A stretch of 64,000 nucleotides of DNA from Prevotella sp. (GTDB lineage: Bacteria > Bacteroidota > Bacteroidia > Bacteroidales > Bacteroidaceae). The notes under the pieces were generated by a model. That model saw only the letters and a list, made by a program, of their open reading frames with translations. It was not told the origin of the DNA and ran no database searches. A program made the position numbers and the translations under genes. Within the stretch, counting starts at the first letter, position 1. Every line of letters starts with the position of its first letter. Below, in pieces: positions 5,133 through 36,822 of the stretch. The stretch spans positions 1-64,000 of the forward strand of contig JAFZIY010000031.1 in assembly GCA_017554105.1 (NCBI GenBank). The letters are read 5' to 3'.

Positions 5133-5585
5133 ATGAGAAAAGAAGTATATCAGATGCTCTGTGATCGGCTGAAGACAGTAGGCGGCGGAGCGATCAAGCA
5201 CATTGATTTGTGGAATCACAATGTGGAGTTTATCGAGCAGGAGGAGCAGTGGGAACGTCCTGCGGTGTTTGTGGAGTTCCATCCGATACATTGGCGTCAG
5301 GTGAAGACCGGTCATTCTGTGGACTACACCTCTCGCTGCCGCGTATCGCTTCACGTTGTCACAGACTGGCATGGCAGCAGCTCTTCGGAGAGTTCTTGCC
5401 GTGAAGAGAGTTTGTCTTATTTAGACCTTCTTGAAGATATTCACGCGTCGTTGCGTGGTCTTCACGGTGAGACGTTCGGTGGTTTTGACCTTGTGGAGTC
5501 GCAGACGAACCACAACCATGACGAGTTGTTAGAGAGCATTGAGATATTCGAGTGTGTCTTGAACAAGGAGTTTAGGAGTTCTTAG
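5133..5585 (+). CDS. Hypothetical phage protein, possibly tail-terminator-like
   Basis: This 150-residue acidic protein begins MRKEVYQMLCDRLKTV and has the pattern of small tail-terminator or Gp37-type proteins: an N-terminal helix, IEQEEQWERPAVFVEFHPIHW, then a strand-rich part with RCRVSLHVVTDW and a C-terminal helix. The family match is weak and rests on layout only. Its place at the end of the early series, before the HNH gene, is unusual for a tail gene. I chose ATG 5,133, since the tandem repeat ends exactly there; an upstream TTG in frame lies inside the repeat. Confidence 0.45.
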   Translation: MRKEVYQMLCDRLKTVGGGAIKHIDLWNHNVEFIEQEEQWERPAVFVEFHPIHWRQVKTGHSVDYTSRCRVSLHVVTDWHGSSSSESSCREESLSYLDLLEDIHASLRGLHGETFGGFDLVESQTNHNHDELLESIEIFECVLNKEFRSS

Positions 5586-18626: not shown

Positions 18627-21518
18627 ATGGCTAAAGACGTAAAATTTAACATAAAAATATCCATTGACGGCAAAGAGCATATTGTTACGGCATCTACAAA
18701 TGTCAAACGGCTTGCCCAAGAAATGGAGATTGCCCAGACGGAAACAACCAAATTCCGTGATGCCCTGCTCAAAATAAACCAAGTTGGCCAGGCATTCCAA
18801 AACGCCTTTAGCGGTTTACAGCAGATTATCGGTGTTATGCGCACCTACACTGCCGCGAGTGCGGTGCAGGAGGAGGCCGAGGCTAAGTTGGCCAACAACA
18901 TGCGTAACACGATGGGTGCAAGGGAAGAGGATATCCAGAGTATCAAGGACCTTTGCGCTGCCCAGCAGCAGCTGGGTGTTATCGGTGACGAAGTTCAGTT
19001 GGCCGGTGCCCAGGAGTTGGCGACGTATCTTGAGAAGAAGTCGAGTCTGGAGATGCTCATCCCCGTGATGAACGACATGGTAGCGCAGCAGTACGGTCTG
19101 AACGCCACTCAGGAGAGCGCTGCGAATATTGCCACGATGCTTGGCAAGGTGATGGAAGGTCAGGTAGGTGCTTTGTCGCGTTACGGCTACAAGTTTGACG
19201 AAGCTCAGGAACAGATTTTGAAGTTCGGTACCGAGGAGCAGCGTGTCGCTGTTCTTTCGGAGGTTGTCGAGAGCGCTGTCGGGGGTATGAACGAGGCGTT
19301 GGCGCAGACCGACGCCGGCAAGGCCAAGCAGGCAGCCAACGACATAGGTGACCTGAAAGAGCAGGTGGGTGCTTTGATAGCCCCTTACGAAACGCTTATT
19401 GTTCAGATTGGCGAGATGGGTTTGGCATTGAATGCCATTATAATGACTGCCAACGGTATCTTGGGCGCTACACGTGCTTTGACACTTTGGACGAACACTG
19501 CAAGACTTGCGGGCATAAACACGAGGATAGCCGGCAATGTTGTCAGTTGGTTTACGACGGTAATGAACCTGTCGTCGGTGAGCATCAAGGGTGCGACGAT
19601 AGCGGTAAAGGGTTTAACGTGGGCGTTAAGGGCTTTAGAGGTAGCCACTGCTATAGGTGCTGTAATCGCCGCCATATCGTTTGCCGTAGAGTTATTTGGT
19701 GATTCCGCTTCGGATGCTTCCGACGAGTTAGGCAAGTTCGGAGATAAAGCCGATGTCGTGGCCGATTCGTATAAGCGTGTTCAGAATGTCTTTGAGAGCA
19801 CCAGTTCTCAGACTTATAGCACTCTGATGACGAGCTATAAGAAACTACAGGCCGGTTGGAAATCGTTAAGCGACGAACACCAGAAGATAGCTTGGATAAA
19901 GGACAACCAGCGAGAGTTTCAGTCGTTAGGCTTGAAGATTGACGGTGTTAGCGATGCCGAAAATGCTTTTGTGAAGAACACCGATGCCGTAGTACAGTCT
20001 TTTATTGCCCGTGCTAAAGCAGCTGCGAGACTAGCGCAACTGACAGAAGAATACAAGTTGCAGAACGAACTTATAGACAAGATAAACACATCTAATGACG
20101 CAGCCCAGGCCCGCCATCATGTAAACGCCGGTGACAAAGCCAACATAACGTCCTGGGACAGGAAGCGCGACGGCAAGTATATCGAGTTGGCAAGCGACGG
20201 CAGTTACCGTTATACCCAAGCAGGCGCGGACCGTGCGAACAGAGTGAAATGGATTGCGAACTCTGATGGCGACAAAGCCAACAGGGAGGCTTTGCGGCAG
20301 AGTCGCGCTCGCACAACACGACTTGAGGCAGGTATGGCAGACGATGTCAAGTCCACCTCCGCTTTGTCGATTATTCCGTCAGGAGGTGGAAGCTCAACTA
20401 CGAGAACTGCCCCGAGTACTACACCGAGAACTAGTGCAGTCACCCCCGAGCCTCCATCCGTTAAGGGGAGTATAAATTGGTATAGGGAGCGGTTAGAGGA
20501 GTTGCAGCGGGAGATTGAGTCTACCAGCGATGAGCAATTAGCAATGACGTTGCAAGCAGACTATAAAGCCATAGAAAAAGAATTGGGTGAATATAGGGTG
20601 CGTATCGGTATTGAAGAGCCTCGCAAAGAGGAAGTGCAGACCGTTGCCGAGAAGATGCAAAGCGAGTTGATTGCCGCTCAGCGTGACTTTGATAATGCCT
20701 TGACCGTAGAAGCCAAGGTGGCCGCTGCCGCTAAAGTCAGTGAGATACAAGCGCAGATAGACGAAGCCACGAGTGGCAAAGTGACTATCGGTGCAGATGT
20801 AGAGGCCTCATACATCGAGCAAGGCAGCGACGCGGACAAACGCCGGAGTTACGCCAATGCCCAGCAAAAGGCAAGCCGCATACAACAGGACTACGAAATA
20901 GGGCTTATCGGCAAGGATAAGGCATTGAGTGAAATCGCGGAACTAAACATCGCACTTGAAAAGTTGGGGTTGAAACCGATAGAAATAGAGGTGATGACCG
21001 ACGATATAAGCAAGGCCAAAGAGAAATACCAAGGTGCGACCGATGCTATTTCCTCAATGGGTCAATCCATATCTGGTTTAGGAAGTTGTTTGGAATTGCC
21101 AGAACTTAATATAGCAGGAACTTTAGCCCAGGCGATAGCGACGATGGCCCAAGGCTATGCCACGGCCACGGCTGAATCTGCCACTTTAGGTCCGTGGGCA
21201 TGGATTGCCTTTGCTGCTGCCGGACTGGCACAACTTACTGCTATGATTTCGAGTGTGAAACAGGTGACAGCCTTTGCTCAGGGCGGTGTTGTGAGCGGTC
21301 CGACTCTGGCCCTTGTGGGCGAGTATGCCGGTGCGAGCAGCAACCCTGAGGTTATTGCCCCTCTGGACAAGTTGCGCGGCATGCTTCAGCCTGCGGGCAT
21401 GGCAATCGGCAAGATGCGTTTTGAGTTGCACGGGAGGAAGCTTGTTGGTGTTCTATCCAACGAGACCAGGATCAGCAGTAAATCTGGCAGGCGTAGTAAC
21501 ATAGTAGTTAACGGTTAG
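18627..21518 (+). CDS. Tail tape measure protein
   Basis: This 963-residue protein has an N-terminal coiled coil, a Gln/Ala-rich helical part, three hydrophobic segments (about 265-300, 320-360 and 880-910: WAWIAFAAAGLAQLTAMISSV) and a C-terminal FAQGGVVSGPTLALVGEYAGASSNPEVIAPLDKL, the usual tape measure ending. It sets tail length and passes into the host membrane on infection. From its length the tail would be roughly 140 nm by the usual 1.5 Å per residue rule. A Ser/Thr/Pro-rich linker near 585-620 separates the halves. Confidence 0.92.
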   Translation: MAKDVKFNIKISIDGKEHIVTASTNVKRLAQEMEIAQTETTKFRDALLKINQVGQAFQNAFSGLQQIIGVMRTYTAASAVQEEAEAKLANNMRNTMGAREEDIQSIKDLCAAQQQLGVIGDEVQLAGAQELATYLEKKSSLEMLIPVMNDMVAQQYGLNATQESAANIATMLGKVMEGQVGALSRYGYKFDEAQEQILKFGTEEQRVAVLSEVVESAVGGMNEALAQTDAGKAKQAANDIGDLKEQVGALIAPYETLIVQIGEMGLALNAIIMTANGILGATRALTLWTNTARLAGINTRIAGNVVSWFTTVMNLSSVSIKGATIAVKGLTWALRALEVATAIGAVIAAISFAVELFGDSASDASDELGKFGDKADVVADSYKRVQNVFESTSSQTYSTLMTSYKKLQAGWKSLSDEHQKIAWIKDNQREFQSLGLKIDGVSDAENAFVKNTDAVVQSFIARAKAAARLAQLTEEYKLQNELIDKINTSNDAAQARHHVNAGDKANITSWDRKRDGKYIELASDGSYRYTQAGADRANRVKWIANSDGDKANREALRQSRARTTRLEAGMADDVKSTSALSIIPSGGGSSTTRTAPSTTPRTSAVTPEPPSVKGSINWYRERLEELQREIESTSDEQLAMTLQADYKAIEKELGEYRVRIGIEEPRKEEVQTVAEKMQSELIAAQRDFDNALTVEAKVAAAAKVSEIQAQIDEATSGKVTIGADVEASYIEQGSDADKRRSYANAQQKASRIQQDYEIGLIGKDKALSEIAELNIALEKLGLKPIEIEVMTDDISKAKEKYQGATDAISSMGQSISGLGSCLELPELNIAGTLAQAIATMAQGYATATAESATLGPWAWIAFAAAGLAQLTAMISSVKQVTAFAQGGVVSGPTLALVGEYAGASSNPEVIAPLDKLRGMLQPAGMAIGKMRFELHGRKLVGVLSNETRISSKSGRRSNIVVNG

Positions 21519-21564
21519 TGCCGCGACGATGTCTCGGCACAGGTGACAAAGATAGAGAGAAGAA

Positions 21565-24264
21565 ATGTATATACACGGCAGTTTTGCAGACGCTAACGGT
21601 GAGGTGGTGACGGTGCATATCGTCACCTCGTCCACGCGCACCCCGAGTCTGGAGATAGGCACGGATGTCTCCGGCATATACTTCAGCGACGACCCTGTAG
21701 ATATTACGAGTGAGGTTAACGACACGTTCGACGTGCTTCTGCGCCACAGTGCCTGCCTACGTCTGCAATGCCGTGACTACATGTCGGATTTCTTCTGCAC
21801 GTCATGCCGTGACGCGGTAGTGAACATCTACCGTGGGGGAGTGTGTCTTTTTGCCGGTTTTATAGAGCCTCAGACGTTGAGCCAGCCTTATAACGAGGTA
21901 TATGACGAAGTGGAACTGAACTGCATCGACGTTCTCTCGGCGTTGCAGTATTCGAGGTACAAGGACGTGGGCAGCGCCGGTGCCGCTTACGATATCGTGA
22001 AGGGTGCCGCATGCCAGCGCACGTTGCACTCCATCCTCACGGATATTCTTGACGGCATCACCTCGGGCATGGACATTGCCGGCGGCCACAGTGTGCGCTA
22101 TCTGTATGACGGCAGCAAAGCCGTTGACAGCGTATTGGCAAACCGTTATGCGATTCTGGAGCAGGTGTCGATATCGGAACTGCTGTTTCTGGGTTCTGAC
22201 GAGGATGAAGTGTGGCGCCAGGACGAAGTGCTGGAGGAGATTCTGCGCTACCTGAACCTGCATATAGTGCAGGACGGTCTTACCTTCTACATTTTCTCGT
22301 GGGAGACGTGCAAGTCGGGTGGCAGCATATCGTGGTGTGATATTGTCAGGGGTGGGTCAGAAACCATGTGGCCTGATACGGTGGCTATAGAGACCTCCAT
22401 TGCCGCCGATTGCGACACCGTTATAAGCCTGTGCGAGGTATTCAACCAGATACTGCTGACCTGCAGTGTTGAGAAAGCGGACAACGTGATAGAAAGTCCG
22501 CTTGACGGCGACCTGCTTACGTCGCCCTACACATGGTTCCAGAAATACTGCACCGAGTATTCGGCCGACGGTGAGGGCAACCACGCATACAATGCCTTCT
22601 TTGCCATGACTCACGAGCGCAAGACGGACTACGGTGCCGGTCGTATTGTGGACTGGTTCCTTCAGGTGATGTCGAACAGTCAGTGGATTTTCCCGAAGAA
22701 CGGTGACTTGAGCAGAGACCTGATATCGACCTACTGCAATGACAACGAGCACCAGGAGGCTTTGCCGAACTGGCTGGGCAGCCATCCCGGTGCCGCCATC
22801 ATCGCCCTTGGCAGCGTTGAGACGAACTGTGCGAATGATGACAACCGTCCGACGTCGAAGGTGAACATGACGAACTGTCTTGTGGTGAGCGTTAACGGCA
22901 ACGGCAAGGACGGCGAGAACGCTTATTACCCCGACGCCTCAGACATCAGGGCCAACATCCCCTACGCCGTATATAACGGCAACATCGCCGGTGGCACATT
23001 CTCTCCCGCTGATGACTCCACGACGAACTACATAGTGCTATCGGGCAAGGTAGTGCTGAATCCTCTTATGGAAATGACGGGCACGTACAAGGCCCTCCAC
23101 GACGCCCAGGAATGGTCGCGTTCCTCTTACTGGCACAAGACCGTTCCGAGCCGTGACAACCCTGACGGTCGATACTATACGCGTCAATACTGGAAGGCCG
23201 GAACCCCATCGGAAGATGCCGTGTGGGATACTCAGACCGACTTCGGTCTGGTGCCATTCACGGGCAAGGGTCCTGAGTGGTATGAATTCAAGTACAGTGC
23301 GGTAGGTGACAGCAGCGACACGATCTCGAAGATTGCCGTACTGGCCTGTATGCTGATTATCGGTGACAAATGCGTATGCGAGAAGACACCTTCCAATGAC
23401 TGGGGTACCGGTGTTCCCTATACCGGCCACGGTCTGCCCGATGATTTTGTCTGGAAGGAATACAAGCCACTGTCGGAATGCTCGAGTGAGGATGAGTACT
23501 ACCAACAGTCGTTTACGATAGGCTTTGACCCGAAGATAGGGGACAAGCTGATAGGCACGGAATATGACCTTCAGACGAACTTCAGCTACACTCTGGGCAT
23601 AGATGCCGAGGGAATAGCCATCCCCATAAGGAAATCCGACAGGGTGAGCGGTCAGGTGAGGTTTATGATATTGGGTCCTGTGAACACTGTGTGGGACGAA
23701 TACACGCGTCGCCATCCTACCTTTTTCCGCCACACGCGGTGGGGTCTGAACAGCGTTCCACTGTTGTCACATGTGAGCAACATCGTCGTGAAGCAGTTTG
23801 AGGTGAAGGTTTACAGTGACAACGGTCATCTGAACAACACCGAGGACAACGACATCGTCTATATGAGCGACACGCGTGAGGAGTTCAAGAACGAGAAGAG
23901 CGACCTGGAGTTCAGGATAAACTCGGCCTTGACTTCGGCGGAGTGCCAGTCGCTTGGTGTGACCAACAGCGTCAATCTCTCCACTCCCGTCAACGAGCTG
24001 ACGGGTGACGCACTACTGTCGATATACGACTACTGCAGAGGTCTCCAGGCCAAGCCGGAACAACTCTACGTGGACAGTTACTACAGTGAATACCATCTGC
24101 CCCGTGTACTCATGGAGCAGAAGCTGACAGACGCCAACGGTATTATCGGTCTTTTCAACCATTACACGCACCCTGCTCTGCAGAAGACGTTCTTCGTTCA
24201 GGGAATCAGCCGTAACCTGCTTGAGTGCCGTGCAGACTTAACTATTAAGGAGACAGGCTTATGA
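21565..24264 (+). CDS. Baseplate/tail hub protein
   Basis: This 899-residue protein starts MYIHGSFADANGEVVTVHIVTSSTRTPSLEIGTDVSGIYFSDDPVDITSEVNDTFDVLLRHSACLRLQCRDYMSDFF. This is a strand-rich N-terminus like distal tail proteins, followed by FAGFIEPQTLSQPYNEVYDEVELNCIDVLSALQYSRY, which resembles tail-hub proteins of Bacteroidota phages. The long middle contains insertions, and the C-terminus (TDANGIIGLFNHYTHPALQKTFFVQGISRNLLECRADLTIKETG) ends at the start of the fibre gene with a 4-base overlap. It probably joins tail tip and fibres. Confidence 0.65.
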   Translation: MYIHGSFADANGEVVTVHIVTSSTRTPSLEIGTDVSGIYFSDDPVDITSEVNDTFDVLLRHSACLRLQCRDYMSDFFCTSCRDAVVNIYRGGVCLFAGFIEPQTLSQPYNEVYDEVELNCIDVLSALQYSRYKDVGSAGAAYDIVKGAACQRTLHSILTDILDGITSGMDIAGGHSVRYLYDGSKAVDSVLANRYAILEQVSISELLFLGSDEDEVWRQDEVLEEILRYLNLHIVQDGLTFYIFSWETCKSGGSISWCDIVRGGSETMWPDTVAIETSIAADCDTVISLCEVFNQILLTCSVEKADNVIESPLDGDLLTSPYTWFQKYCTEYSADGEGNHAYNAFFAMTHERKTDYGAGRIVDWFLQVMSNSQWIFPKNGDLSRDLISTYCNDNEHQEALPNWLGSHPGAAIIALGSVETNCANDDNRPTSKVNMTNCLVVSVNGNGKDGENAYYPDASDIRANIPYAVYNGNIAGGTFSPADDSTTNYIVLSGKVVLNPLMEMTGTYKALHDAQEWSRSSYWHKTVPSRDNPDGRYYTRQYWKAGTPSEDAVWDTQTDFGLVPFTGKGPEWYEFKYSAVGDSSDTISKIAVLACMLIIGDKCVCEKTPSNDWGTGVPYTGHGLPDDFVWKEYKPLSECSSEDEYYQQSFTIGFDPKIGDKLIGTEYDLQTNFSYTLGIDAEGIAIPIRKSDRVSGQVRFMILGPVNTVWDEYTRRHPTFFRHTRWGLNSVPLLSHVSNIVVKQFEVKVYSDNGHLNNTEDNDIVYMSDTREEFKNEKSDLEFRINSALTSAECQSLGVTNSVNLSTPVNELTGDALLSIYDYCRGLQAKPEQLYVDSYYSEYHLPRVLMEQKLTDANGIIGLFNHYTHPALQKTFFVQGISRNLLECRADLTIKETGL

Positions 24265-27200
24265 TAGACGTAAAACTTATAAAGAAGCCCAAAGGCGGCA
24301 GCGCCGGTTCCGGCGGCACCCGCTATGTGCCGGGTACCGCTGACGAGTCGCGTCACGCCCTGAAAGCAGACGAGTCGTTGCGTTCGGGCCGTGCCGACTT
24401 TGCCGACCGTGCCGAATACTCCGACCGTTCGGGCCATGCCTCACGTTCCTCATACTCTGACGTTGCTGAAGACCTTGTTGAGGACAGTCCTGTATTTGGA
24501 AAATTCCTCAGTCGTCTTGTCAATGATGCGGCGCAGGGTGTGATAACCTTTGCGAAGGGCATATTGTTTGGGGACGGCAGTCATGGCATAACAGAGGACG
24601 GCGATGCCTCGCTCCGTGACATCAGGATGCAAAGCACTCAGTCGGAGGGCTATAGCGGCACGGACACCATCACGGACAAGGGTTTCAAGGTATGGGAGGA
24701 CTCTGAGGGTAAGAGTCATTTGATTACCGACTACTTCACGGCGAGAGTGAAGGCGTTCTTCGCCTCTCTGGAGATACGGAAGATAGAGCATTCGGCCGGC
24801 AACAGGATAGAGAGTCCTGCTGGCAATACGCTTGCCTTGGTCAAGAAGTTCAATGCCGACGATGAAGAGATAAAAGACAAGTGGCATGCGCGGCGTTACG
24901 GCTTCGGTTTGTCGTGGGGATATAAGCTTGTGCATGTTGCCGGTCAGTTCTTCGGTGTGTGGAAGGAGGACGAGACGGCAGAGGTGGCATATTACCGCTG
25001 CTATTGGACTGCTGATGACAAAGAGGCAAAGAAAGCCGTTGAGAACAACTGGAAGGTTGGCGATCAAGCGTATTGTCAGACCTTTAACCTACGTGTTCCG
25101 CAAGGCAGTGGCTTCGCATCTAATAAATATTATTGGCGACTTGTTGTAGGTACGGGTTATGAGACTATTGAGGGTGTTGAGTATGCGTACATCGACTTGT
25201 CAAACGAGGAAACATTATACTTGGAAGCAAGCAAGATAGATACTCCGATAGACGCACAAGTTGATAGCGGACTGATTGCCTGTTCAGGCTATGACTCAGG
25301 TTCCGATGCTCCCGAAGCTGGTGACGATGTGGCTTGTCTCGGTAATCAAGTGTCATGGAGTACACGAGGCGGTGCTAAACAGACCATTACTTATGACCCA
25401 CACCCTGATACAAGCGGAATCACCGTTCCTTGCGTGAAGATGTATGCTGGCATCAACTCTTTCAGCGCACTCGACAACTTTAGATTCAAAAAGGAGAGTC
25501 CGAGCGGTATCTATGTTCATTCTGACAAGTTCCAGATAGTCAGTGCTGCTGGAACAGGTGCTTCTTCTCCTATCTACTGTCAGCGTGGCACATATTCGGC
25601 AACCGAGACATACGGAAAGAATGACATCGTGCAATATCACGGAGCATCGTGGCTGTATATCAATGACACTCCTTCATCGGGTCATGCTCCTGCGGAGGGA
25701 GAATATTGGACGGCTTTTGCACAGCGTGGCATGGCAACTCCATATATACAACTTAATTGTTCTAATGTTATTGTCAGTGCCGATAGCGAGGGAAGAATAA
25801 GCAGTAATGCAGCCATTGTTGTAAAACCGACAAAGATAGAACTTTACGTTGACGGCAACAAGATACCTGTATCGGCATGGAACCTGCCAAGCAGTTATGT
25901 ATTCTATTATAATAGAACGCAATATTTCAACCAATCGGGATTGCAGTCAGGTATTAATATCGGTAGTTTTACCGCTTCGGCTGATTATGTCACGATAAAT
26001 TGGCAATATTATCCAATAGTCAGCGGACAGACAATTATCAATCCAGTTATTGATTCGACATCATTTGCATTTCATATTGTCTTCACTTATAATGGTGAGA
26101 CCTATGTTGCCGAGACAAGTATTCCCTTGACTGTCCAACGACCTGGTGCAAGTGGTGCTAATGGTGCTAACGGACTTAATTCTGCGACGGTATTTTTGTA
26201 TCAAAGGAGTTCTTCCGTTCCGAGCAAGCCTTCTTCAACCTTAACATACACTTTCTCGTCGGGTCTGATGAGTGGTACTTTGGGCAATTGGACACAGATT
26301 ATTCCAACATCAAATGGAAACCCATGCTATGTGATACAAGCGACTGCGGTGGCGACCACATCCACGGACACAATCGCAAGTTCCGAATGGTCTTCCCCAA
26401 CGGTGTTGGTCGAAGATGGAGAAGATGGGGCATCTGGTGCGGCAGGATATAATACTGCTACGGTATATTTATACCAAAGGGCATCCTCAACCCCACAAAC
26501 GCCAACAAGTACACTAACATATACATTCGCCACAAAGTCATTAAGTGGAACATTGGGGAATTGGTCGCAAACAATCCCTTCGGGAACAAATCCCCTCTAT
26601 GTGACCGCAGCAACGGCATATTCTAATACCGCAACCGACACCATTGCATCAAATGAATGGAGTGCGGCGGTTATTCTTGTACAAAACGGAACAAATGGGA
26701 ATAGTGTAATGGCAGAATATTCTGCCACTGGTGCTGCAAATTCTTGGCACTCAACATTCCAAAATGGAGATTTATATGTGCATTATAGTTACGATGGTGG
26801 TTCTACATGGACTACCGCCATACGATTTGTGGGCAAATCAATAGAGTTTGAAAAAGGAATACGTCACTTTGCATCTTACAACGATTTATGGAATTATCTT
26901 GTCGCAAAACAAGCGAGTTATACCGATAGCGATTTCGGCTACTACCTTACCGATACCGATGATGGTAGTACACCCGAAGCATGTCTATGGTATTTTTACA
27001 CACAATCTTCCGACCCAAGAGATTTACAGTATGTTTCTTTACCGCAAAGTGGGGAAGTGAATTATTTTACGAGTTATGATGGTCATTTGTGGAACGCAGA
27101 AGATGGCGATACCGCATGGCATGATTTGGGTGTTATTCAAGGTGCGGATGGTGCGGATGGAATAAGTATCATATTAGACCCTGCTACGGTCATATTTAAC

Positions 27201-28385
27201 CAAGCCGAAACATCTCCTTATGGAATAGATACGATCGGTTTCTCGGCAACAGTAAGGGTTTGGCAAGGTGCGACACCATTATCGGGCAATTTTATACCGC
27301 AAAATGGTGTAAGCGGAACAAACTGTCAAGCAAGTTTTAGCGGAAACACGGTTTATATCAATAGCATAAACTACACAACGGATGCAAACAATCAAAAGCA
27401 TTACTATTCCTCTGGAAAGGTAGATGTCACGGTTGTGGTAAATAATCAAGCCGTTGTGCTTACATTGAATTGGGCGGCAAACCTATTGGGAGAATGGAAA
27501 CTAAACGTTGTGAACGACACGATGTCGGCGGTTTCATCAATGCCCGTCACATATTATGATGCGGATGGGGATCTACAAATCGCCGCATTTTCCACCGCAA
27601 TACAACAAAGTAGTCAAGGTGTAAGTCTTTGTGCGAAGAAAAACGATGTTGAAGCCGCAGGAATACATCTTAATGGACAAAATTCGACTATCAATCTTGT
27701 GGCTGGCAAGGTTAATTTTATTGACCCAAATGGCGGCGTTGACACAAAGATATGGATAGACCCAGCAACAGGAACGCTACACGCAGCGGATGGCGATTTT
27801 CAAGGCACATTGAATGCGAAAAGTTACCTCACTCGCTATGCGGATTTGACAAGATACTGCTATAATAGCCCGGGCGCAAGTTATAGTGATAGATTTTTCA
27901 TACCAGGCTTCCATACAACGATGTATGATGCGAATGACAACGCGCTGAATATTGCAGGTTTCTGGTGTTTTCGTGTCGGAGAGGTAGGTATGGAGATTTT
28001 CTTGCCGACAAAATTCTCTGAGGTTGACCCCAACAATCCTACCCATATATTCGACGGCATAGACTTGACGGGACAGCGAATAGTTCTTTATAATCCGTAT
28101 ATTGCATATCGTAGTGCATCGCATGCTACCATTATCCATGCGGGAGAGGTTTACAGTGACGGTACGGTCTATAATTTACAAACAGACGTAATAAGGGGCG
28201 TTGGGCTACCCGTCCACTCATCAGACCCCGTTCTTATGGACCAGTACGACCCTGTATATGGAATATCGTTTGTTGACGGTCTCGTTGAACTACAATGCTT
28301 GCCAAGCGACGGGATATACACGCAATATGAATGGTGCGTGGTTAACTTGGGAACTAATGTCTATAAACTATATGGAAGAAATTAA
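24261..28385 (+). CDS. Large tail fibre / receptor-binding protein
   Basis: This 1,374-residue protein has an N-terminal part of short heptad-like repeats (ADESLRSGRADFADRAEYSDRSGHASRSSYSD), a GDGSHGITEDGDASLRDI trimer-like region, a CBM5/12-like segment near 455-500 (TYSATETYGKNDIVQYHGASWLY), Gly-Ala-Asn/Asp collagen-like runs, and two tandem repeats of about 90 residues at about 635-810 (each begins N[ST]ATV[FY]LYQR). The base composition falls from GC-rich to AT-rich near 25,000, so the distal half looks acquired. It would bind host surface glycans. The 3' end lies 18 bp before a tiny acidic gene. Confidence 0.8.
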   Translation: MIDVKLIKKPKGGSAGSGGTRYVPGTADESRHALKADESLRSGRADFADRAEYSDRSGHASRSSYSDVAEDLVEDSPVFGKFLSRLVNDAAQGVITFAKGILFGDGSHGITEDGDASLRDIRMQSTQSEGYSGTDTITDKGFKVWEDSEGKSHLITDYFTARVKAFFASLEIRKIEHSAGNRIESPAGNTLALVKKFNADDEEIKDKWHARRYGFGLSWGYKLVHVAGQFFGVWKEDETAEVAYYRCYWTADDKEAKKAVENNWKVGDQAYCQTFNLRVPQGSGFASNKYYWRLVVGTGYETIEGVEYAYIDLSNEETLYLEASKIDTPIDAQVDSGLIACSGYDSGSDAPEAGDDVACLGNQVSWSTRGGAKQTITYDPHPDTSGITVPCVKMYAGINSFSALDNFRFKKESPSGIYVHSDKFQIVSAAGTGASSPIYCQRGTYSATETYGKNDIVQYHGASWLYINDTPSSGHAPAEGEYWTAFAQRGMATPYIQLNCSNVIVSADSEGRISSNAAIVVKPTKIELYVDGNKIPVSAWNLPSSYVFYYNRTQYFNQSGLQSGINIGSFTASADYVTINWQYYPIVSGQTIINPVIDSTSFAFHIVFTYNGETYVAETSIPLTVQRPGASGANGANGLNSATVFLYQRSSSVPSKPSSTLTYTFSSGLMSGTLGNWTQIIPTSNGNPCYVIQATAVATTSTDTIASSEWSSPTVLVEDGEDGASGAAGYNTATVYLYQRASSTPQTPTSTLTYTFATKSLSGTLGNWSQTIPSGTNPLYVTAATAYSNTATDTIASNEWSAAVILVQNGTNGNSVMAEYSATGAANSWHSTFQNGDLYVHYSYDGGSTWTTAIRFVGKSIEFEKGIRHFASYNDLWNYLVAKQASYTDSDFGYYLTDTDDGSTPEACLWYFYTQSSDPRDLQYVSLPQSGEVNYFTSYDGHLWNAEDGDTAWHDLGVIQGADGADGISIILDPATVIFNQAETSPYGIDTIGFSATVRVWQGATPLSGNFIPQNGVSGTNCQASFSGNTVYINSINYTTDANNQKHYYSSGKVDVTVVVNNQAVVLTLNWAANLLGEWKLNVVNDTMSAVSSMPVTYYDADGDLQIAAFSTAIQQSSQGVSLCAKKNDVEAAGIHLNGQNSTINLVAGKVNFIDPNGGVDTKIWIDPATGTLHAADGDFQGTLNAKSYLTRYADLTRYCYNSPGASYSDRFFIPGFHTTMYDANDNALNIAGFWCFRVGEVGMEIFLPTKFSEVDPNNPTHIFDGIDLTGQRIVLYNPYIAYRSASHATIIHAGEVYSDGTVYNLQTDVIRGVGLPVHSSDPVLMDQYDPVYGISFVDGLVELQCLPSDGIYTQYEWCVVNLGTNVYKLYGRN
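26150..26700. repeat. Two tandem repeats of about 265 bp in the fibre gene
   Basis: Each unit encodes a domain that starts with ATV(F/Y)LYQR and ends IAS(S/N)EWS. The units differ at DNA level, so the duplication is old. Confidence 0.6.
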
Positions 28386-29642: not shown

Positions 29643-30281
29643 ATGGGAGCTAAGAGTTATACGAGAAGGGAGTTGATGGGCGGATTAATTCAAGAACTGG
29701 AATATCTTGAAATACCAAACGGAAGTGTCTGCTTCGCTTCTGATTACATTCCTAATGGACAGGATAATGTAATACAGTGCAAATTCAAGTTCGATGGATA
29801 CATAAATGAATCGGGTTCAATATATCATTCTTGGTATTGGGCAAGACCGTCAGGAGGTGATGGTTATCCAAACTATAGAATCATGTCCGCTGGGGCTGTT
29901 GGTTATATTACTGTTCAAAATGGACGAAGAGGAAATTATGTATCACAGAACCGAGTCCCTGTGACAAAAGGTTCTATATATGAGTTCTATATATATAAAA
30001 ATCAATATTTTACTATAAATGGGACTCGATATACCTACACAAATTCTAATCCCACAGGAACAAATGATTGTGCTTTATATATAATTGATACAAATAGGAG
30101 ATTTAAGGGTCGTTTTTACTATCTTAAATGGTGGAAAGGCGACACCTTGGTTTTAGACTGGGTTCCTGCAATTGTAAATGGCGAAATATGTATTTATGAT
30201 AGGCTTAATAAGAAAAAATTAACCCGTTCAGGAGCAGGACGTGTCATGCCAGGTCCCGTAAAACGAACTTTTATTATATAA
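29643..30281 (+). CDS. Lectin-like fibre tip protein, first of three YTRR paralogues
   Basis: This 212-residue protein starts MGAKSYTRRELMGGLIQEL. The YTRR(E/N)LM tag recurs at the N-termini of the two genes that follow (30,387 and 31,161), so all three probably attach to the same fibre socket. The rest is strand-rich with many Tyr, Trp and Gly, the pattern of a concanavalin-like (LamG) lectin (FKFDGYINESGSIYHSWYWARPSGGDGYPNYRIM). It is AT-rich compared with the tail genes upstream. Unlike its two paralogues, it has no G-run leader. Confidence 0.6.
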   Translation: MGAKSYTRRELMGGLIQELEYLEIPNGSVCFASDYIPNGQDNVIQCKFKFDGYINESGSIYHSWYWARPSGGDGYPNYRIMSAGAVGYITVQNGRRGNYVSQNRVPVTKGSIYEFYIYKNQYFTINGTRYTYTNSNPTGTNDCALYIIDTNRRFKGRFYYLKWWKGDTLVLDWVPAIVNGEICIYDRLNKKKLTRSGAGRVMPGPVKRTFII

Positions 30282-30285
30282 CAAT

Positions 30286-30390
30286 ATGAGAACAATGTAC
30301 AACAGTATCATACCCATTTTAATGGGGGGGGGTAAAAACCTAATTATCAACGACTTATGCCGAAACCTCGGAGAAAGGAGGGCGGCATGA
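30286..30390 (+). CDS. 34-residue leader peptide with a G9 tract, frame open to the fibre gene
   Basis: ATG 30,286 (MRTMYNSIIPIL...) reads through nine G (30,324-30,332) and on to a TGA at 30,388-30,390 that overlaps the ATG of the next gene (ATGA). The peptide is nearly identical to that of the leader at 31,059: most base changes between the two copies are silent (ATC/ATT, ATT/ATC, TTA/TTG, AAC/AAT), which argues that it is translated. With G9 here the frame reaches the next start, so coupling would be on. Change of the G run by one base would end it early or elsewhere. Confidence 0.6.
   Translation: MRTMYNSIIPILMGGGKNLIINDLCRNLGERRAA
30324..30332. repeat. Homopolymeric G9 tract, leader 1
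   Basis: Nine G directly inside the short leader frame. Runs of this length mutate often in bacteria by slippage. Confidence 0.8.
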
Positions 30391-31040
30391 GATACTACAC
30401 AAGAAGAAACCTGATGATGGAAGACTCTAAAGTGAAGCCATACATCCAAGATGGACTTGTGTTTCATCTTGATGGAGCAGACTCTGACGGAAAGACGTGG
30501 GTGGACAGGGTAGCTGGTATCATCTACACTCGAAGCGAAGGAACTGCAGACGGCAAAGGTGTAACATTCAATATGGGGGCTGGAGCATATATGGTAGGTA
30601 ACAAAAGTATCGCTACCATTTCCCCTAATGCTGGGACGATAGAAGTGTGTGCTTACAGACGTGGTACCACCAACTCAGTTACCGATGAAGTTCTCTATGC
30701 TACATCAGGAATGCCAGCAATTCATTATGACGTTGACAAGTCAGGTACCTTTGTCACCATCTCAAACAGAAATTCAGGTCCGGCACCCAGAGCACCCATC
30801 AGTGGAAAAGGTGTTGGTAAGTTCACACATAGTTGCTGCGCTGCAAGAACTTGTTACAACGGAACAATGGCAGCAGTTGGGTCCCAAACCTACAAAACCC
30901 AACAAGCAAATAGAGTCGGAATCTCTTTTAAAGGAGATATATATCAAATCCGCATTTACAACCGCCAACTAACGGAGGCAGAAATGAGGTGGAATCAAAT
31001 CCAGGATGCTAAGAGATACGGAATAGCCCTAGAATTATAA
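30387..31040 (+). CDS. LamG/concanavalin-like fibre lectin, second YTRR paralogue
   Basis: This 217-residue protein starts MRYYTRRNLMM after a strong ribosome site (AAAGGAGG, 6 bp before ATG), unusual in Bacteroidota. The body (YIQDGLVFHLDGADSDGKTWVDRVAG, then GISFKGDIYQIRIYNRQLTEAEMRWNQIQDAKRYGI) matches LamG/concanavalin A-like domains, whose last strand is followed by 'R(I/L)YNRxLTxxEi..N...d..ryg'. It probably binds host surface polysaccharide. Translation may be coupled to the G-run leader that ends at its start. An in-frame ATG at 30,357 would add ten residues encoded inside the leader and is less likely. Confidence 0.72.
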   Translation: MRYYTRRNLMMEDSKVKPYIQDGLVFHLDGADSDGKTWVDRVAGIIYTRSEGTADGKGVTFNMGAGAYMVGNKSIATISPNAGTIEVCAYRRGTTNSVTDEVLYATSGMPAIHYDVDKSGTFVTISNRNSGPAPRAPISGKGVGKFTHSCCAARTCYNGTMAAVGSQTYKTQQANRVGISFKGDIYQIRIYNRQLTEAEMRWNQIQDAKRYGIALEL

Positions 31041-31058
31041 CTTCAAAAACATAACATT

Positions 31059-31109
31059 ATGAGAACAATGCACAACAGTATTATACCCATCTTGATAGGG
31101 GGGGGGTAA
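31059..31109 (+). CDS. Leader peptide copy 2 with G9 tract, frame closed (16 residues)
   Basis: MRTMHNSIIPIL... is the second copy of the leader. Here the codon before the G run is ATA rather than ATG, so nine G (31,098-31,106) place a TAA immediately after them. With eight G the frame would run on through the same KNLIINDLC and LGERRAA as in copy 1 and stop at the ATGA of the gene at 31,161. The copy therefore looks switched off by one base. Confidence 0.55.
   Translation: MRTMHNSIIPILIGGG
31098..31106. repeat. Homopolymeric G9 tract, leader 2
   Basis: Nine G; one base too many for the leader frame to reach the next gene. Confidence 0.8.
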
Positions 31110-31160
31110 AAACCTAATTATCAATGACTTATGCCAGATTCTCGGAGAAAGGAGGGCGGC

Positions 31161-31616
31161 ATGAGTGCAAGATACTATACTCGAAGGGAACTAATGAATA
31201 TGGCTGTGGAAGAAGTGTATAATCCAATGGCGAAATGGAAGTATGATGAGGTCATCACTATAAGCAGCGTTAGAAGATACACGGAACGTGGCTGGGGAGA
31301 TGTCTCAGGGAACAGATTGGCTTGGTATGCCACCAATTATACCGGCTATCATAAGACGCTCGACGTAATGGAAGGCCAGCGATACAAAGTGAAGGCGAAC
31401 AGTTCTGCTGCTACCACCATAATATTCTGCAACGACCATGTATGGGCGTCGAGAAAGGCAACAACACCCGCGGCATTGATATCAATACCCGCAGGAAAAG
31501 AGAGAGTGGTGACAGTACCGAGCGGATATTCCTACATGATGTTCCGATACGGAAACACCTCAATGGCAACAGTCTTCCTGCCCGAACGAATAGCACGACT
31601 CGTAGCATATGGATGA
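31161..31616 (+). CDS. Fibre tip protein, third YTRR paralogue
   Basis: This 151-residue protein starts MSARYYTRRELMNMAVEEVYNP and shares the YTRR tag with its two neighbours but has a different body: KWKYDEVITISSVRRYTERGWGDVSGNRLAWYATNYTGYHKTLDVMEGQRYKVKANSSAATTIIFC, a small beta-rich domain. The AAAGGAGG site and ATGA overlap copy those of 30,387. It could be an alternative receptor-binding tip expressed when the second leader is in frame. Confidence 0.6.
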   Translation: MSARYYTRRELMNMAVEEVYNPMAKWKYDEVITISSVRRYTERGWGDVSGNRLAWYATNYTGYHKTLDVMEGQRYKVKANSSAATTIIFCNDHVWASRKATTPAALISIPAGKERVVTVPSGYSYMMFRYGNTSMATVFLPERIARLVAYG

Positions 31617-31634: not shown

Positions 31635-31946
31635 ATGAAGCAATACAAAAAGACCGTGAACGGCGTCACGGAGTATTATCGCGAGCCGTTAATCGTTGGA
31701 AATAAGCATGTGCTTAATCCAACGGAAGAGATGATTTTGGCTGCTGGGTGGGAAGAGTATATCCCCGAAGAAGAGCCGAGTGAAGAATATCAGCCTACCT
31801 ACGAGGAAAGGGTGGTTGAATTGATTCGTCAGCGATATTCCATTGACGATGAGATAGCCATTCTACGGCAGAAAGAAACAAAGGCTGATGAATATGCCGC
31901 ATGGTACGCTTATTGTGAGCAGTGCAAGGCGGAAGCGAAAACATAA
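31635..31946 (+). CDS. Fibre assembly or chaperone-like protein
   Basis: This 103-residue protein reads KKTVNGVTEYYREPLIVGNKHVLNPTEEMILAAGWEEYIP, then an acidic stretch and a C-terminal helix (VVELIRQRYSIDDEIAILRQKETKADEYAAWYAYCEQCKAEAKT). The pattern 'npteem.laaGweeY.P...ryS.ddE.ailrq' is common to small proteins at the end of Bacteroidota phage tail operons, perhaps with a fibre chaperone role. It ends the late operon; a dense hairpin region with T runs follows. Confidence 0.6.
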   Translation: MKQYKKTVNGVTEYYREPLIVGNKHVLNPTEEMILAAGWEEYIPEEEPSEEYQPTYEERVVELIRQRYSIDDEIAILRQKETKADEYAAWYAYCEQCKAEAKT

Positions 31947-32436: not shown

Positions 32437-33267
32437 ATGAGAAAACAATACTTATCGGCACCACTTCCCTTCCAGGGACAGAAGCGGATGTTTGCCAAGG
32501 AGTACATCAAGGTGCTCCAGCAGTTCCCTGACGGCACGACCTTCGTGGACCTATTCGGCGGCTCTGGTTTATTATCACACATAGCCAAGTGCCAGAAGCC
32601 GCATTCCACTGTAGTGTATAATGACTTTGACGGTTACCGCCAGCGCTTGGAAGCCCTGCCCGTCACCAACGCGCTGCTGGCAGAACTGAGGGAGATAGTT
32701 GACGTGCCACGCCACAAGCCCATATTGGGAGAGGTCAAAGAGCGTGTGCTTTCATGCGTCCGCAAGTATGAGCACGACTACGGTTACATTGACTATATCA
32801 CGCTGTCTTCGTCGGTTATGTTTTCCATGAAATATGCCAATGAGTTCGCGGATCTGGAAAAGGAGACATTATATAATAATATAAGGACAACAGACTATGA
32901 GCCATGCCTGGACTACCTCGACGGTCTGACTATTACCTCCTGCGACTACAGGGAGGTATTCAATCAATACAAGGATGTGCCAGGCGTGGTGTTCCTGGTT
33001 GACCCTCCTTATCTGAGCACAGATTCCAAGACCTACAAGATGTACTGGAAACTATCTGACTACCTCGATGTGCTGACGGTGCTTGCTGGTCACAGGTTTA
33101 TCTATTTCACCTCGAACAAATCTTCTATCATTGAACTGTGCGATTGGATGGGAAGGCATCCGGAACTTGGAAATCCATTTGAGAACTGCCAGCGTCGCGA
33201 GTTCAACGCCCACATGAATTACAGCGCGTCCTACACGGACATTATGCTATATACGAAAGCCGCTTGA
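32437..33267 (+). CDS. Dam-like adenine-N6 DNA methyltransferase (D12 class)
   Basis: This 276-residue protein begins YLSAPLPFQGQKRMFAKEY and has motif I FVDLFGGSGLL, an ndfDGY segment, and motif IV DPPYLST (about 195), all in the order of D12-class (Dam) enzymes. It methylates adenine in a short site and may protect phage DNA from host restriction or control phage genes. A likely promoter (AACCTTTG at 32,407-32,414) lies 23 bp before ATG 32,437. It is followed 26 bp later by the ThyA-fold gene; the two may form a DNA-modification pair. Confidence 0.87.
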   Translation: MRKQYLSAPLPFQGQKRMFAKEYIKVLQQFPDGTTFVDLFGGSGLLSHIAKCQKPHSTVVYNDFDGYRQRLEALPVTNALLAELREIVDVPRHKPILGEVKERVLSCVRKYEHDYGYIDYITLSSSVMFSMKYANEFADLEKETLYNNIRTTDYEPCLDYLDGLTITSCDYREVFNQYKDVPGVVFLVDPPYLSTDSKTYKMYWKLSDYLDVLTVLAGHRFIYFTSNKSSIIELCDWMGRHPELGNPFENCQRREFNAHMNYSASYTDIMLYTKAA

Positions 33268-33292: not shown

Positions 33293-33931
33293 ATGAACAA
33301 ATACTATCAGATACTGGGCAAGGTTCTCGAACATGGGAAGACCCAGACCAACAAAAAAGGAAACATCCGCTACCTGCTGAATGAGCAGCTGTCATTGACT
33401 CCGGCTGACTTGCTCGACATCTTCGAGAGTCACGGCATTGCGAGAAAGAAACTGAAGAATGAGCTGCAACTATTCATGCAGGGTGAGCGGAACGTAGAAC
33501 GGTACCGCGACGTGGGCATCAACTGGTGGGACTACTGCGGGAGCGTGTTGGTGAACAGCTATCCGACCTACTTTGAGAAGCTGCCGCCACTCATTGCGAA
33601 GATAAACCGTGAAAAGCGCAACAGCAAAAACTATGTGCTGTTTCTGGGCGAGACGGGGGCGGAGAGTAATCAGGCGCCTTGTCTCAGTCTGGTGCAGTTC
33701 CAGATAGACGACGGGGAATTGGTGCTATCCGCATACCAGAGGAGCAGCGATGCCAACCTTGGCTTGCCGGCTGACATATACCACCTGTACTTGATGGCGC
33801 GACATATAGACCTGCCTTTGAAGTCAATCACGCTGAACCTCGGCAACGTACACATATACGAGAACAATATAGAGCGCACGCGCCAGTTGCTCGATGGCGA
33901 CGAGAATGTGCGGTTTGAGTTGAATACCTAA
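33293..33931 (+). CDS. ThyA-fold pyrimidine (hydroxy)methylase, dCMP-type active site
   Basis: Residues 76-100 (INWWDYCGSVLVNSYPTYFEKLPPL) and 129-190 align with thymidylate synthase. The catalytic Cys is in APCLSLVQF (Cys130 = E. coli 146), the phosphate-binding Arg in YQRSSD (Arg150 = 166; Asp153 = 169), then LGLPADI (Asp161 = Asn177) and NVHIY (His187, Tyr189 = 207, 209). Spacing from Cys to residue 161 equals that of E. coli ThyA exactly. Asp where ThyA has Asn is the change that gives dCMP preference in T4 dCMP hydroxymethylase. The usual His after Cys is Leu. At 212 residues it is shorter than ThyA (264). Product (5-hydroxymethyl- or 5-methyl-dCMP) cannot be told from sequence. Confidence 0.78.
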   Translation: MNKYYQILGKVLEHGKTQTNKKGNIRYLLNEQLSLTPADLLDIFESHGIARKKLKNELQLFMQGERNVERYRDVGINWWDYCGSVLVNSYPTYFEKLPPLIAKINREKRNSKNYVLFLGETGAESNQAPCLSLVQFQIDDGELVLSAYQRSSDANLGLPADIYHLYLMARHIDLPLKSITLNLGNVHIYENNIERTRQLLDGDENVRFELNT

Positions 33932-34293: not shown

Positions 34294-36822
34294 TTATAAA
34301 ATGGATAGCGAGTCTTCTAATTTCTCTTCTGCTTTAGTGTAGAATAGTTGCGCATCCTTTTCTGCCTTTCGTAATTTATGAGACAAGTCTTTTTGCTTTT
34401 TAACAGAATCATCCAGAGTGTCAACTACAACGGAATTCAGCTGATCTGGCGTTAATTCTATAAGTCCTGTAGCTCCTGTATATGCCCTGTTTATTTGAAT
34501 CGCGCCAGCACCTTTTCGGATAAAATCTGCCAAATAATATGGATCTATTTTCTTACGGTTAACTCTTATTATTGTGACATGACCATCTACAATGGCAGGT
34601 ACATCCATATCAAAAACTGCAGATTTTCCTAAAGTACCATCTCCTGTTGATGCTACTAAAACATCATATTTTTCTGCTATAATATTAAAATGGTTGTTGG
34701 ATGTCTCATACTCTTCATAAACAGATTTCTCAATCCAATCATTGTTTTCACTTATAATGGTTCCGTATTTGGATATGTTTCCTGCTTTAATTACAATTGC
34801 AAAACCATCTTTTTCGTCAACATATTGTTCCAAATCAGGGCTTTTTCCACGTCCAGTTGATATCGTATTCAAATCTCTAATTGTGGTTTTGTTCTTTTCA
34901 TAAAGAGAATTAATAAGTTTCTTCGTCTTAGGATTCAAATATTTATAGTCAAATCGATGACACTCCTCAGAAAGAATATCTGATATTTTGATATAATAAA
35001 ACTCCCAATTGTTATCTGCATCTTGGTAAAAAGCAGACTTGTTGATAAATAAGTTTTTCGTAATGTCGTCTATTAACTGTTGGAAATTGAAGCCCCTAAT
35101 ATCATTTCCTGATGGATCATATCCCAAAGTGTTGAGTTTAACAAGATAAAAACTATAATCTTCATCGTTTTTGATTTCTTCATCTGTCTTTTTCTGCAAA
35201 TAAAGCAAACTTGATTTTACGTTTATCTTATTTGGTTTAAATGTTTCTATTGGTAATTCAACAATAGCCTTTATCTTACAAAAGTGTAATATCAGATTTC
35301 TAATAGGAATATTAGAATCTGTATTCAATATTCCTTGATCAATAACAGTGAAAATCTCTCCATTAGGTTTTGTAGATTTTATCATCTTCTCGATAAAAAG
35401 AACTTGCCCTTTGAAAGAATTCATATCATATTTCGCCTTATCTTCTTCTTTTAAACTACCATTTTCAGAAGTGCCAAATGGTGGATTAGTCATAATTACA
35501 TCCACATCAGGCATATCCATATTCCAGTTTTCTGCATCAGATGCCAAACTATTTTCATTTCTTATATTTGTTTGGCCGTCACCCGCAATTATCATATTCA
35601 TTTTAGCAGATGCTGCTACTGCTGGATTTGCGTCAGAACCAAAGAATGTGTTTTCTTTTATCCTTTTTCTTATGTTTTTGTATCTTTCAGCTGTCAGTTT
35701 GTTGTCTTCATATTCTTTGTCAAGTCTTTTAAGGTTCTTTTGCAACATATAGACTAAGAACCCTGCAGTACCACAAGCTGGATCTAATATCTTGAATTTT
35801 TTATTGCCGTCTAGGTTTTTAATTGTGTCATATATTTTATCCTCACCTAATATGGCATACATCAAATGAACCAGATTTCGAGGTGTAAAATACTGACCCA
35901 ATTTTTTCCCCTTAAGGGTTGCTCTTACATAATATTCAAATGCAGCTCCTTTAACATCAGTTGAACAATCAATAAATGAAATTGTATCCAATATTTTAAC
36001 AATCTCATAATATGTGTTAGCATTCTTAAGACCAACACCTTTACCTAAAACTTCCGAATACTTTGTCTCTTCTTTTATTTTACAGATCATCCTTTCTATT
36101 GATGCCTGAACTTGATCTGCCTCAGTTTTTTGCCTTTTTACTAATTCATAGAATCTGTACAAATATGGTAACTTAAATGCATTAGGCTTACCTAATTCAT
36201 CTTCAGCTTTCTCCTCTAGAAGTTTTAAAAACAATAGTTTAGAGAAATCCTCAAAAGCATCTTGTTCGTTATGTTCTATCTTTCTTATAATATTGTGACA
36301 TTTCTCAAATACAACATTCAACTGTCTTAAAGACAATCCCTGTCTATAAGGTAACGACAATTTATTTGACAGTGCTATATCATTACATTTTTTGTTAGCC
36401 TTAAAGAGTTTTAAAACCTGTGGTAATTCATTTCGTGTTGGTAGCTTGTCAACATAATCACCATCAAAAGCTATTCGTTCTTTAGTGATTGTATTAAAGC
36501 AGAAGATATTAACGCCATTTGTTAATACTGCAAACGGAACACCTTCTGCTTTTGCATATTTCAAGGCTTGTTTTTTATCTTTGGTATCTAATTTCTTTGA
36601 GATTTTCTTCGCTTCAATAATAAAGCACTTTTTGTTACCTATAGATACGAGAATATCAATATAACCTTTATTAATACCATCATTAGCCGTTACGCTTTCA
36701 AATGTCATATCGGTCTCAATGTCATAACCTCTTCTTTCTAAATACGGAAGGATTTTTTTTTGACAGTTTCTGTTTCTGATATATGCATATTGCTCATATT
36801 TATTAAACAATTTGTTCTCCAA
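34294..36822 (-). CDS. Single-chain restriction-modification enzyme (type IIG-like)
   Basis: This 842-residue protein joins three parts. Residues 30-130 are a type I HsdR-N-like nuclease: GYIDILVSIGNKKCFIIEAKK gives Asp56, Glu70 and Lys72 of a PD-(D/E)xK site. Residues 165-560 are an HsdM-like N6-adenine methylase with GQYFTPRNLV, motif I DPACGTAGFL (347-356) and motif IV NPPF (446-449). Residues 610-842 look like an HsdS-type target-recognition region ending in a coiled coil. Such fusions cut and methylate with one protein. The start codon is TTG. The DNA is much more AT-rich than the flanks, a sign of transfer. No separate S or R gene is seen. Confidence 0.8.
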   Translation of the reverse strand: MENKLFNKYEQYAYIRNRNCQKKILPYLERRGYDIETDMTFESVTANDGINKGYIDILVSIGNKKCFIIEAKKISKKLDTKDKKQALKYAKAEGVPFAVLTNGVNIFCFNTITKERIAFDGDYVDKLPTRNELPQVLKLFKANKKCNDIALSNKLSLPYRQGLSLRQLNVVFEKCHNIIRKIEHNEQDAFEDFSKLLFLKLLEEKAEDELGKPNAFKLPYLYRFYELVKRQKTEADQVQASIERMICKIKEETKYSEVLGKGVGLKNANTYYEIVKILDTISFIDCSTDVKGAAFEYYVRATLKGKKLGQYFTPRNLVHLMYAILGEDKIYDTIKNLDGNKKFKILDPACGTAGFLVYMLQKNLKRLDKEYEDNKLTAERYKNIRKRIKENTFFGSDANPAVAASAKMNMIIAGDGQTNIRNENSLASDAENWNMDMPDVDVIMTNPPFGTSENGSLKEEDKAKYDMNSFKGQVLFIEKMIKSTKPNGEIFTVIDQGILNTDSNIPIRNLILHFCKIKAIVELPIETFKPNKINVKSSLLYLQKKTDEEIKNDEDYSFYLVKLNTLGYDPSGNDIRGFNFQQLIDDITKNLFINKSAFYQDADNNWEFYYIKISDILSEECHRFDYKYLNPKTKKLINSLYEKNKTTIRDLNTISTGRGKSPDLEQYVDEKDGFAIVIKAGNISKYGTIISENNDWIEKSVYEEYETSNNHFNIIAEKYDVLVASTGDGTLGKSAVFDMDVPAIVDGHVTIIRVNRKKIDPYYLADFIRKGAGAIQINRAYTGATGLIELTPDQLNSVVVDTLDDSVKKQKDLSHKLRKAEKDAQLFYTKAEEKLEDSLSIL

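Follow-up and report, generated by a model that had tools for sequence, protein, structure and literature searches.

Poly-G tracts in short leaders as candidate switches of downstream fibre-like genes in a Mu-like prophage of Prevotella

Introduction

Can a run of G switch a gene when it lies in front of that gene and not inside it? The question is raised by two short leaders, each with a tract of nine G (G9), that stand before two fibre-like genes in a Mu-like prophage of Prevotella sp. The stretch of DNA analyzed here, called the window, is 64 kb (64,000 nt) of contig JAFZIY010000031.1. The genome it belongs to is 3.1 Mb. Poly-G and poly-C contingency loci of Campylobacter, Helicobacter, and Neisseria turn genes ON or OFF depending on the reading frame, and surface structures are their targets. 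In phage Mu, Gin inversion diversifies the tail fibres.

Our analysis of sequences and predicted RNA folds indicated that the window tracts are probably phase-variable slipped-strand switches acting by hairpin-gated translational coupling. DNA polymerase slippage would alter the length of the G tract and thereby set the frame of the leader. In the open frame, the ribosome would melt a hairpin, stop in an ATGA overlap, and re-initiate on the exposed site of the fibre gene. In the other frames it would leave early, before the hairpin. The hairpin would then hide the ribosome site and the AUG, and the fibre gene would be silent.

Frames of the two leaders

The leaders, their tracts, and the Shine-Dalgarno (SD)-like sites behind them are located as follows.

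30286..30390, + strand: leader 1, 34 codons, in frame, forming ATGA with the next gene
30324..30332, + strand: G9 tract 1
30374..30381, + strand: AAAGGAGG, SD-like site, 5 nt before the ATG at 30387
31059..31164, + strand: leader 2, out of frame at the assembled length, with the stop TAA at 31107–31109
31098..31106, + strand: G9 tract 2
31148..31155, + strand: AAAGGAGG, SD-like site, 5 nt before the ATG at 31161

These tracts were the only G runs of at least seven nucleotides in the window, where one C run of seven was found. Runs of nine G occurred at five places in the whole genome, two of them being the window tracts. Leader 1 (ATG at 30286) passes its run and ends at TGA 30388–30390, which overlaps the ATG at 30387 (ATGA 30387–30390). 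Leader 2 (ATG at 31059) has ATA where copy 1 has ATG, and it stops at the TAA directly after its run. The post-run frame of leader 2 remains open to the ATGA at 31161–31164. The two off frames of the window end 3 and 11 nt past the run, ahead of the hairpin arm at about +22 to +24. Both tracts are homopolymers of at least seven in a frame-deciding position, the mark of a phase-variable locus, and at both ATGA sites the upstream stop overlaps the downstream start, the mark of coupled genes. In the assembled window, gene 30387 would be gated ON and gene 31161 gated OFF, and gene 29643, the fibre-like gene preceding them, would have no gate.

A preliminary description of the locus had recorded the two nine-G leaders, the passage of the copy 1 frame through the run to the ATGA overlap, and, in copy 2, the ATG-to-ATA change, the immediate stop, and another frame that restores ATGA. 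These observations held, and the frame arithmetic was correct. The same description had claimed that the leader peptide is under selection because most differences between the copies are silent. This claim was rejected as unsupported, because just four of the eight differing codons were silent; three changed the residue, and the remaining one was the ATG/ATA pair.

Recurrence of the layout in phages and Bacteroidota genomes

The layout was defined as a G run, TAA, AAAGGAGG, and a start codon overlapped by the leader stop. On viral contigs, the pattern G8-TAA-N25-55-AAAGGAGG gave 21 matches in 17 stretches, and in 20 of the 21 the post-run frame reached a stop overlapping the next start. When C8 replaced G8, 2 stretches were found versus 17. 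On genome contigs, the pattern G7-TAA-N25-50-AAAGGAGG-N4-9-ATG retrieved 81 stretches. Sorted by record title, 32/34 matches from Bacteroidota had the overlapping stop versus 12/50 from other organisms (Fisher p 5.5e-11).

With duplicates and chance rows taken out, 63 elements were left, 40 before phage genes and 23 before polysaccharide genes. The count includes four second elements found by a looser pattern (in L057, L099, L120, and L121; stretches are given by their L numbers). L079 (3,447 bp identical to L062) and L082, L084, and L086 (identical to L051, L036, and L046, respectively, with the L036/L084 identity spanning 1,614 bp) were dropped as duplicates. L049 was dropped for lacking the coupling frame, and L059 and L119 for lacking the overlapping stop. 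Among the 12 non-Bacteroidota positives, L063, L074, L088, L106, and L117 were left out, whereas L058, L127 (two), L091, L095, L096, and L122 were kept. Further G runs of these loci that were missed by the patterns stayed out of the count, as did a G11 tract in L146.

Run lengths among the 63 elements were 7 (7 elements), 8 (20), 9 (24), 10 (7), 11 (3), and 12 (2). The tract of 7–12 G lies in a short leader or in the 3′ end of the preceding open reading frame (ORF), about 55 nt before the next gene. The open frame runs for some 15–24 codons past the tract and then meets a stop overlapping the next start, mostly as ATGA, beside AAAGGAGG. This stop began at the second base of the next start (ATGA or GTGA) in 51/63 elements. 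The upstream ORF was shorter than 30 codons in 18/63 (L073 and L126 lie close to the stretch end) and longer in 45/63. Both off frames stopped more than 10 nt before the start in 45/63 elements.

On the polysaccharide side, 18 of the 23 genes were scanned, and all of them (18/18) had Pfam hits, nearly all to sugar or surface-polysaccharide synthesis. The families were epimerases, cytidylyltransferases, glycosyltransferases, acyltransferases, FdtA, Alg14, DUF4422, and one PylC-like N-terminal domain. Phage-side genes were assigned by similarity and context; when ten of them were compared with PHROGs, seven were unmatched and three belonged to families of unknown function. Several gates stand between relatives; in L121, for example, three consecutive genes are cytidylyltransferase-like. 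In L060 the gates are arranged in series. The polysaccharide switches of L121, L065, L113, L091, L095/L122, and L099 often lie between apparent tandem paralogues, an arrangement that would fit the choice or addition of an alternative enzyme. As a separate observation, phage csAssE-Sib (OR575929.1, L146:3921), crAss-like by name, has a G11 tract that starts in an ATG just before a fibre-like gene annotated as hypothetical protein.

Tract length in related records

L043 and L071, which are separate public records, had 3 differences in 7,994 aligned bp: two tracts each differed by one G, and the third difference was a substitution. The sole difference between L050 and L052 was one G over 1,598 bp. 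In open-length scans, in which the run length was left free within the gap, 12, 10, and 8 G were found in 3/3 records of one locus, and 9, 9, 10, and 9 G in 4/4 records of a neighbouring locus; a 9/8 pair was also found. Tract length varied between close relatives for L043/L071, L050/L052, and L039/L041/L054. These comparisons are good evidence for natural length changes in tracts of this kind; they concern related elements, not the window tracts. Phage elements were in frame in 15/40 cases (25 out), which was compatible with one third (p 0.62).

Predicted hairpins and the SD site

Hairpins were predicted over the SD site and the start codon of both genes behind the leaders.

30354..30391, + strand: predicted hairpin over the SD and AUG of the 30387 gene (−20.2 kcal/mol, z −3.8 versus shuffled arm)
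31127..31166, + strand: predicted hairpin over the SD and AUG of the 31161 gene (−17.9 kcal/mol, z −2.7)

The z values were obtained by shuffling the 5′ arm. As controls, 41 sites were used in which a G run is likewise followed by this SD and an ATG but which had not been taken as elements; three of them (L063, L088, and L117) do have the overlapping stop. A z below −2 was found for 20/40 phage and 17/23 polysaccharide elements versus 6/41 controls. Across 48 sequence clusters, own arms gave more stable folds than arms taken from other elements (Wilcoxon p 1.8e-4), and the arm comparison of the 48 clusters against 38 controls gave p 0.002. The SD and the AUG were both paired in 27/48 clusters versus 6/38 controls (p 1.4e-4).

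The reading frame of AAAGGAGG differed between leaders, whose peptides end in ERRAA, KKGGRR, or KGGGYE. This variation of the SD frame suggests that nucleotides, and not a peptide, are kept. The conserved feature looks to be the ribosome site, and often the hairpin, rather than the peptide.

In the genome of the window, AAAGGAGG with ATGA was present at 10 places versus 2 in the reversed control, and a G run accompanied it at only the two window sites. At three of the places without a G run, an ORF of at least 98 codons overlaps another. A strong SD with ATGA also occurs in this genome away from the proposed switch.

Evidence against the proposed switch and alternative explanations

The preliminary description had proposed that tract length gates the downstream fibre gene by translational coupling. 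This proposal gained support, because the coupling geometry recurs, the in-frame share of phage elements (15/40) is about that of random slippage, and near-identical sequences in nature differ in tract length.

Several observations weigh against it. The search patterns themselves fixed the TAA and AAAGGAGG in most elements, but not the open frame or the overlap. Polysaccharide elements were in frame in 14/23 cases, above one third (p 0.007), and 18/63 elements have just one off frame that ends over 10 nt ahead of the start. The hairpin is missing from some elements, including several Porphyromonadaceae-type phage elements. With swapped arms, the share in which both SD and AUG are paired fell merely from 27/48 to 44% (p 0.06); a large part of the arm is therefore a generic complement. 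Under strict patterns the layout was rare in the genus, being found in 2/299 genomes (the own genome and G196) by a search without TAA. All four elements found by that search carry TAA after the run, and its reversed control was empty. The window leader, searched among 200 genomes, was found in its own genome and, as hits of merely 22–28 bp, in three others. No relative sharing this leader was found in these genomes or in the searches of viral contigs, phages, and plasmids. Of the expected run-length differences, those between near-identical records of related elements were seen, and the window tracts have no length variant on record. Finally, it has been reported that Bacteroidetes make no use of SD sites, whether in initiation or in re-initiation (PMC6728339), which makes the strong SD in these elements notable, and no functional SD interaction was reported for Prevotella bryantii (PMC3155529).

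Other explanations were considered for the same data. The differing run lengths could be homopolymer mistakes of assembly or sequencing, the true lengths being fixed. Homopolymers are error-prone, run lengths in single assemblies may be off by one, and the two G8 runs are the longest homopolymers of the L043/L071 stretch (the next is A6, twice), so that error is possible for this pair taken alone. However, 12, 10, and 8 G in three records of one locus is a wide range for mistakes, the related leaders of L032 (G7) and L048 (G8) also differ, and the coupling geometry recurs independently of exact lengths, which leaves error as a general explanation quite improbable. The differences between near-identical records also speak against programmed recoding, in which slippage of RNA polymerase or the ribosome gives a fixed mix of frames from one DNA; the fibre gene would then always be partly expressed, and there would be no heritable switch. 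Homopolymer runs do cause transcriptional slippage and recoding in other systems (PMC3711429), and here the post-run frames are open even where the run is out of frame. A programmed site, however, should hold one length and one frame, and the in-frame share of phage elements was about that of chance (15/40). We consider recoding unlikely.

The geometry itself bears on two further explanations. The G run might be an RNA structure or a small-RNA target whose effect is graded by length, with the frame being irrelevant, as reported for Helicobacter pylori RepG, which targets a variable G repeat in an mRNA leader (PMC8295292). Such an element would not explain why the leader frame is open, why the stop sits on the second base of the start that follows (51/63), or why tracts lie at the 3′ end of ORFs of at least 30 codons (45/63), and we give it very little credence. 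Alternatively, copy 2 could be a broken, functionless duplicate of copy 1, as it is out of frame and the residue is changed in 4/8 differing codons. Yet it retains the open frame past the run, the SD, the ATGA, and the hairpin. Its fibre gene is open throughout and has a relative behind a G10 tract in L032. Decay is therefore very unlikely.

The fibre cassette and its prophage setting

PHROGs comparison of the window identified Mu-like prophage genes, namely those for a MuA-type transposase, a MuB-type protein, portal, terminase, major head protein, and amidase. The window is a piece of a Mu-like prophage. The cassette and the tail gene before it comprise the following genes.

24261..28385, + strand: gene of a large tail protein preceding the fibre cassette, with a match to a tail-fibre PHROG (E 4e-4)
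29643..30281, + strand: preceding fibre-like gene with N-terminal motif YTRRELM, without G tract
30387..31040, + strand: fibre-like gene, 217 aa, proposed to be gated by leader 1
31161..31616, + strand: fibre-like gene proposed to be gated by leader 2
31635..31946, + strand: small last gene of the cassette; the L032 cassette is followed by a similar ORF at 5268–5588

Genes 29643, 30387, and 31161 have a common N-terminal motif (YTRRELM or YTRRNLM), and all three are located 3′ of the tail gene 24261–28385. The short nine-G leader precedes the second and third of them (30387 and 31161). The protein of 30387 gave a weak Pfam match to Laminin_G_3 (ConA-like lectin; E 0.0093, below the curated cut-off), and no match to it was found in 298 other genomes of the genus. 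A lectin fold was not confirmed for this protein; its structure model had a mean pLDDT of 38, too poor to use. The cassette genes are putative fibre genes, as judged from their position, the common N-terminus, and the weak lectin match.

Nine genes between 28579 and 33928 were scanned with Pfam and/or PHROGs. No reverse transcriptase, as expected for a diversity-generating retroelement, was found among them, and no site-specific invertase or recombinase, as expected for a Gin/Cin-type system; inverted repeats were not searched. Further downstream, a minus-strand gene (34294–36822) joins an HsdR-like N terminus with an N6 DNA methylase domain. Near it are a D12-class adenine methylase gene (32440–33267) and a thymidylate-synthase-like gene (33293–33931).

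Relatives of the window locus

The exact leader-tail pattern had no match in viral contigs, and distant blastn with the window locus gave no match in phages or plasmids. Scans with the tail protein found two viral relatives and no genome contig. The closest cassette was that of L032 (IMG/VR contig 3300014043_000498), which has the same two gated gene types in the opposite order. In L032, a 197-codon fibre-like ORF enters a G10 tract at its 3′ end and continues to ATGA. The protein encoded behind this tract (L032:4018–4479) is 51% identical to the 31161 protein. The protein of L032:4607–5254 is 40% identical to the 30387 protein, and its gene is preceded in frame by a different G7 leader. Because L032 shows both arrangements, a leader can stand alone as a mini-gene or form the 3′ end of the gene before it.

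Phages L029/L030 have a related tail protein (74% identical) and a different fibre region. In L030, positions 18909–21579 hold a gene with a sub-threshold Lcl_C match together with a reverse transcriptase (RVT_1, E 1.7e-16). From these matches, the fibre region of L030 is a probable diversity-generating retroelement in place of G tracts.

A search of 398 genomes with G8TAAAAACCTAATTAT, allowing 3 mismatches, gave four non-own hits versus three hits in the reversed control, so the shared post-run letters alone are no evidence. Two of the four non-own hits (G004 and G006, unscanned) resemble, by eye, poly-G tracts in sugar-coat genes. At G004:C4:165438 (L005/L026), in another genome of the genus, G9 splits an apparent acyltransferase gene (by eye) into two frames, and this site resembles a classic poly-G switch lying inside a surface sugar gene. 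At G002:C265:3226 (L004/L035), the same GGAGAAAGGAGGGCGGCATGA coupling motif was seen with a nine-residue mini-ORF and without a G tract; there it precedes another fibre-like gene near an apparent endolysin gene (by eye). Near matches to the coupling motif in L033 and L037 look like chance.

Discussion

Campylobacter Fletchervirus is a published case of poly-G switching of receptor-binding proteins (Sorensen et al. 2021, Cell Rep 35:109214, via PMC11868660, PMC11959909, PMC9311878). The likeness is that hypermutable poly-G tracts diversify phage receptor-binding proteins and the host has poly-G on its surface genes (PMC11959909). A difference is that the window-type tract lies in a leader or in the 3′ end of the preceding ORF and would gate the next gene by coupling. 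As far as the reviews and Fletchervirus NCTC12673 indicate, a Fletchervirus-type tract lies inside the switched ORF, whereas the window tracts lie in leaders before the fibre ORFs. NCTC12673 has only two G runs of at least seven (11 and 9), in ORFs annotated as hypothetical and not confirmed as receptor-binding proteins. Frames of 267 and 206 codons are open beyond these tracts, and no AGGAG was found within 75 nt.

The homopolymer of about 7–12 G is also like that of contingency loci; the tracts of Campylobacter have 7–11 G (PMC9311878). A classic contingency tract switches its own gene, whereas the window-type tract would switch the next one. In termination-reinitiation coupling, the downstream start of an ATGA overlap is thought to be read by the terminating ribosome (PMC6728339), and stop and start overlap in the window elements too. 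The proposed switch differs from ordinary coupling in being conditional on a hypermutable tract and in having a strong SD, in a phylum whose re-initiation is said to do without such sites (PMC6728339). The diversity-generating retroelement of hankyphage diversifies tail fibres (PMC6199706, PMC12135933). It and Mu Gin have the same biological task, and the window phage is Mu-like. However, the window has slippage tracts, and the nine genes scanned between 28385 and 34294 include neither a reverse transcriptase nor an invertase.

No description of the coupled layout was found in the literature searched, which covered few subscription papers. The accessible parts of the zeta crAss-like and hankyphage papers, which deal with retroelements, held no mention of homopolymer or poly-G/polyG. 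The preliminary description had stated that no such switch was known. This statement has to be narrowed: poly-G switching of phage receptor-binding proteins is known from Campylobacter phages, and the coupled layout was not found described.

For the prophage, the likely benefit of the switch would be a mixed particle population with different receptor-binding tips, and the switch may change host range or receptor binding. Beyond the prophage, we lean, by a little, towards a wider view. Gut Bacteroidota and their phages may share one mobile module, consisting of a hypermutable G tract, a stop, and a hairpin hiding the SD, that sits between consecutive genes and makes an operon a chain of chance gates. 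It would act on alternative sugar-coat enzymes, often beside a paralogue, in the host and on alternative fibres, sometimes in series, in the phages, and it would be an exception to the rule that Bacteroidota ignore SD sites.

If the proposed switch is true, phages of common gut bacteria would generate mixed receptor-binding states by slippage between genes, not inside genes. Searches for phase-variable genes, as well as gene callers, could easily miss this layout, because an out-of-frame leader looks like nothing. Besides DNA inversion and retroelements, Mu-like phages would have a third way to vary their fibres, and the finding would suggest one switch common to the coat genes of the host and the fibres of the phage. 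The standing puzzle of whether Bacteroidota ribosomes use SD sites in re-initiation would become testable.
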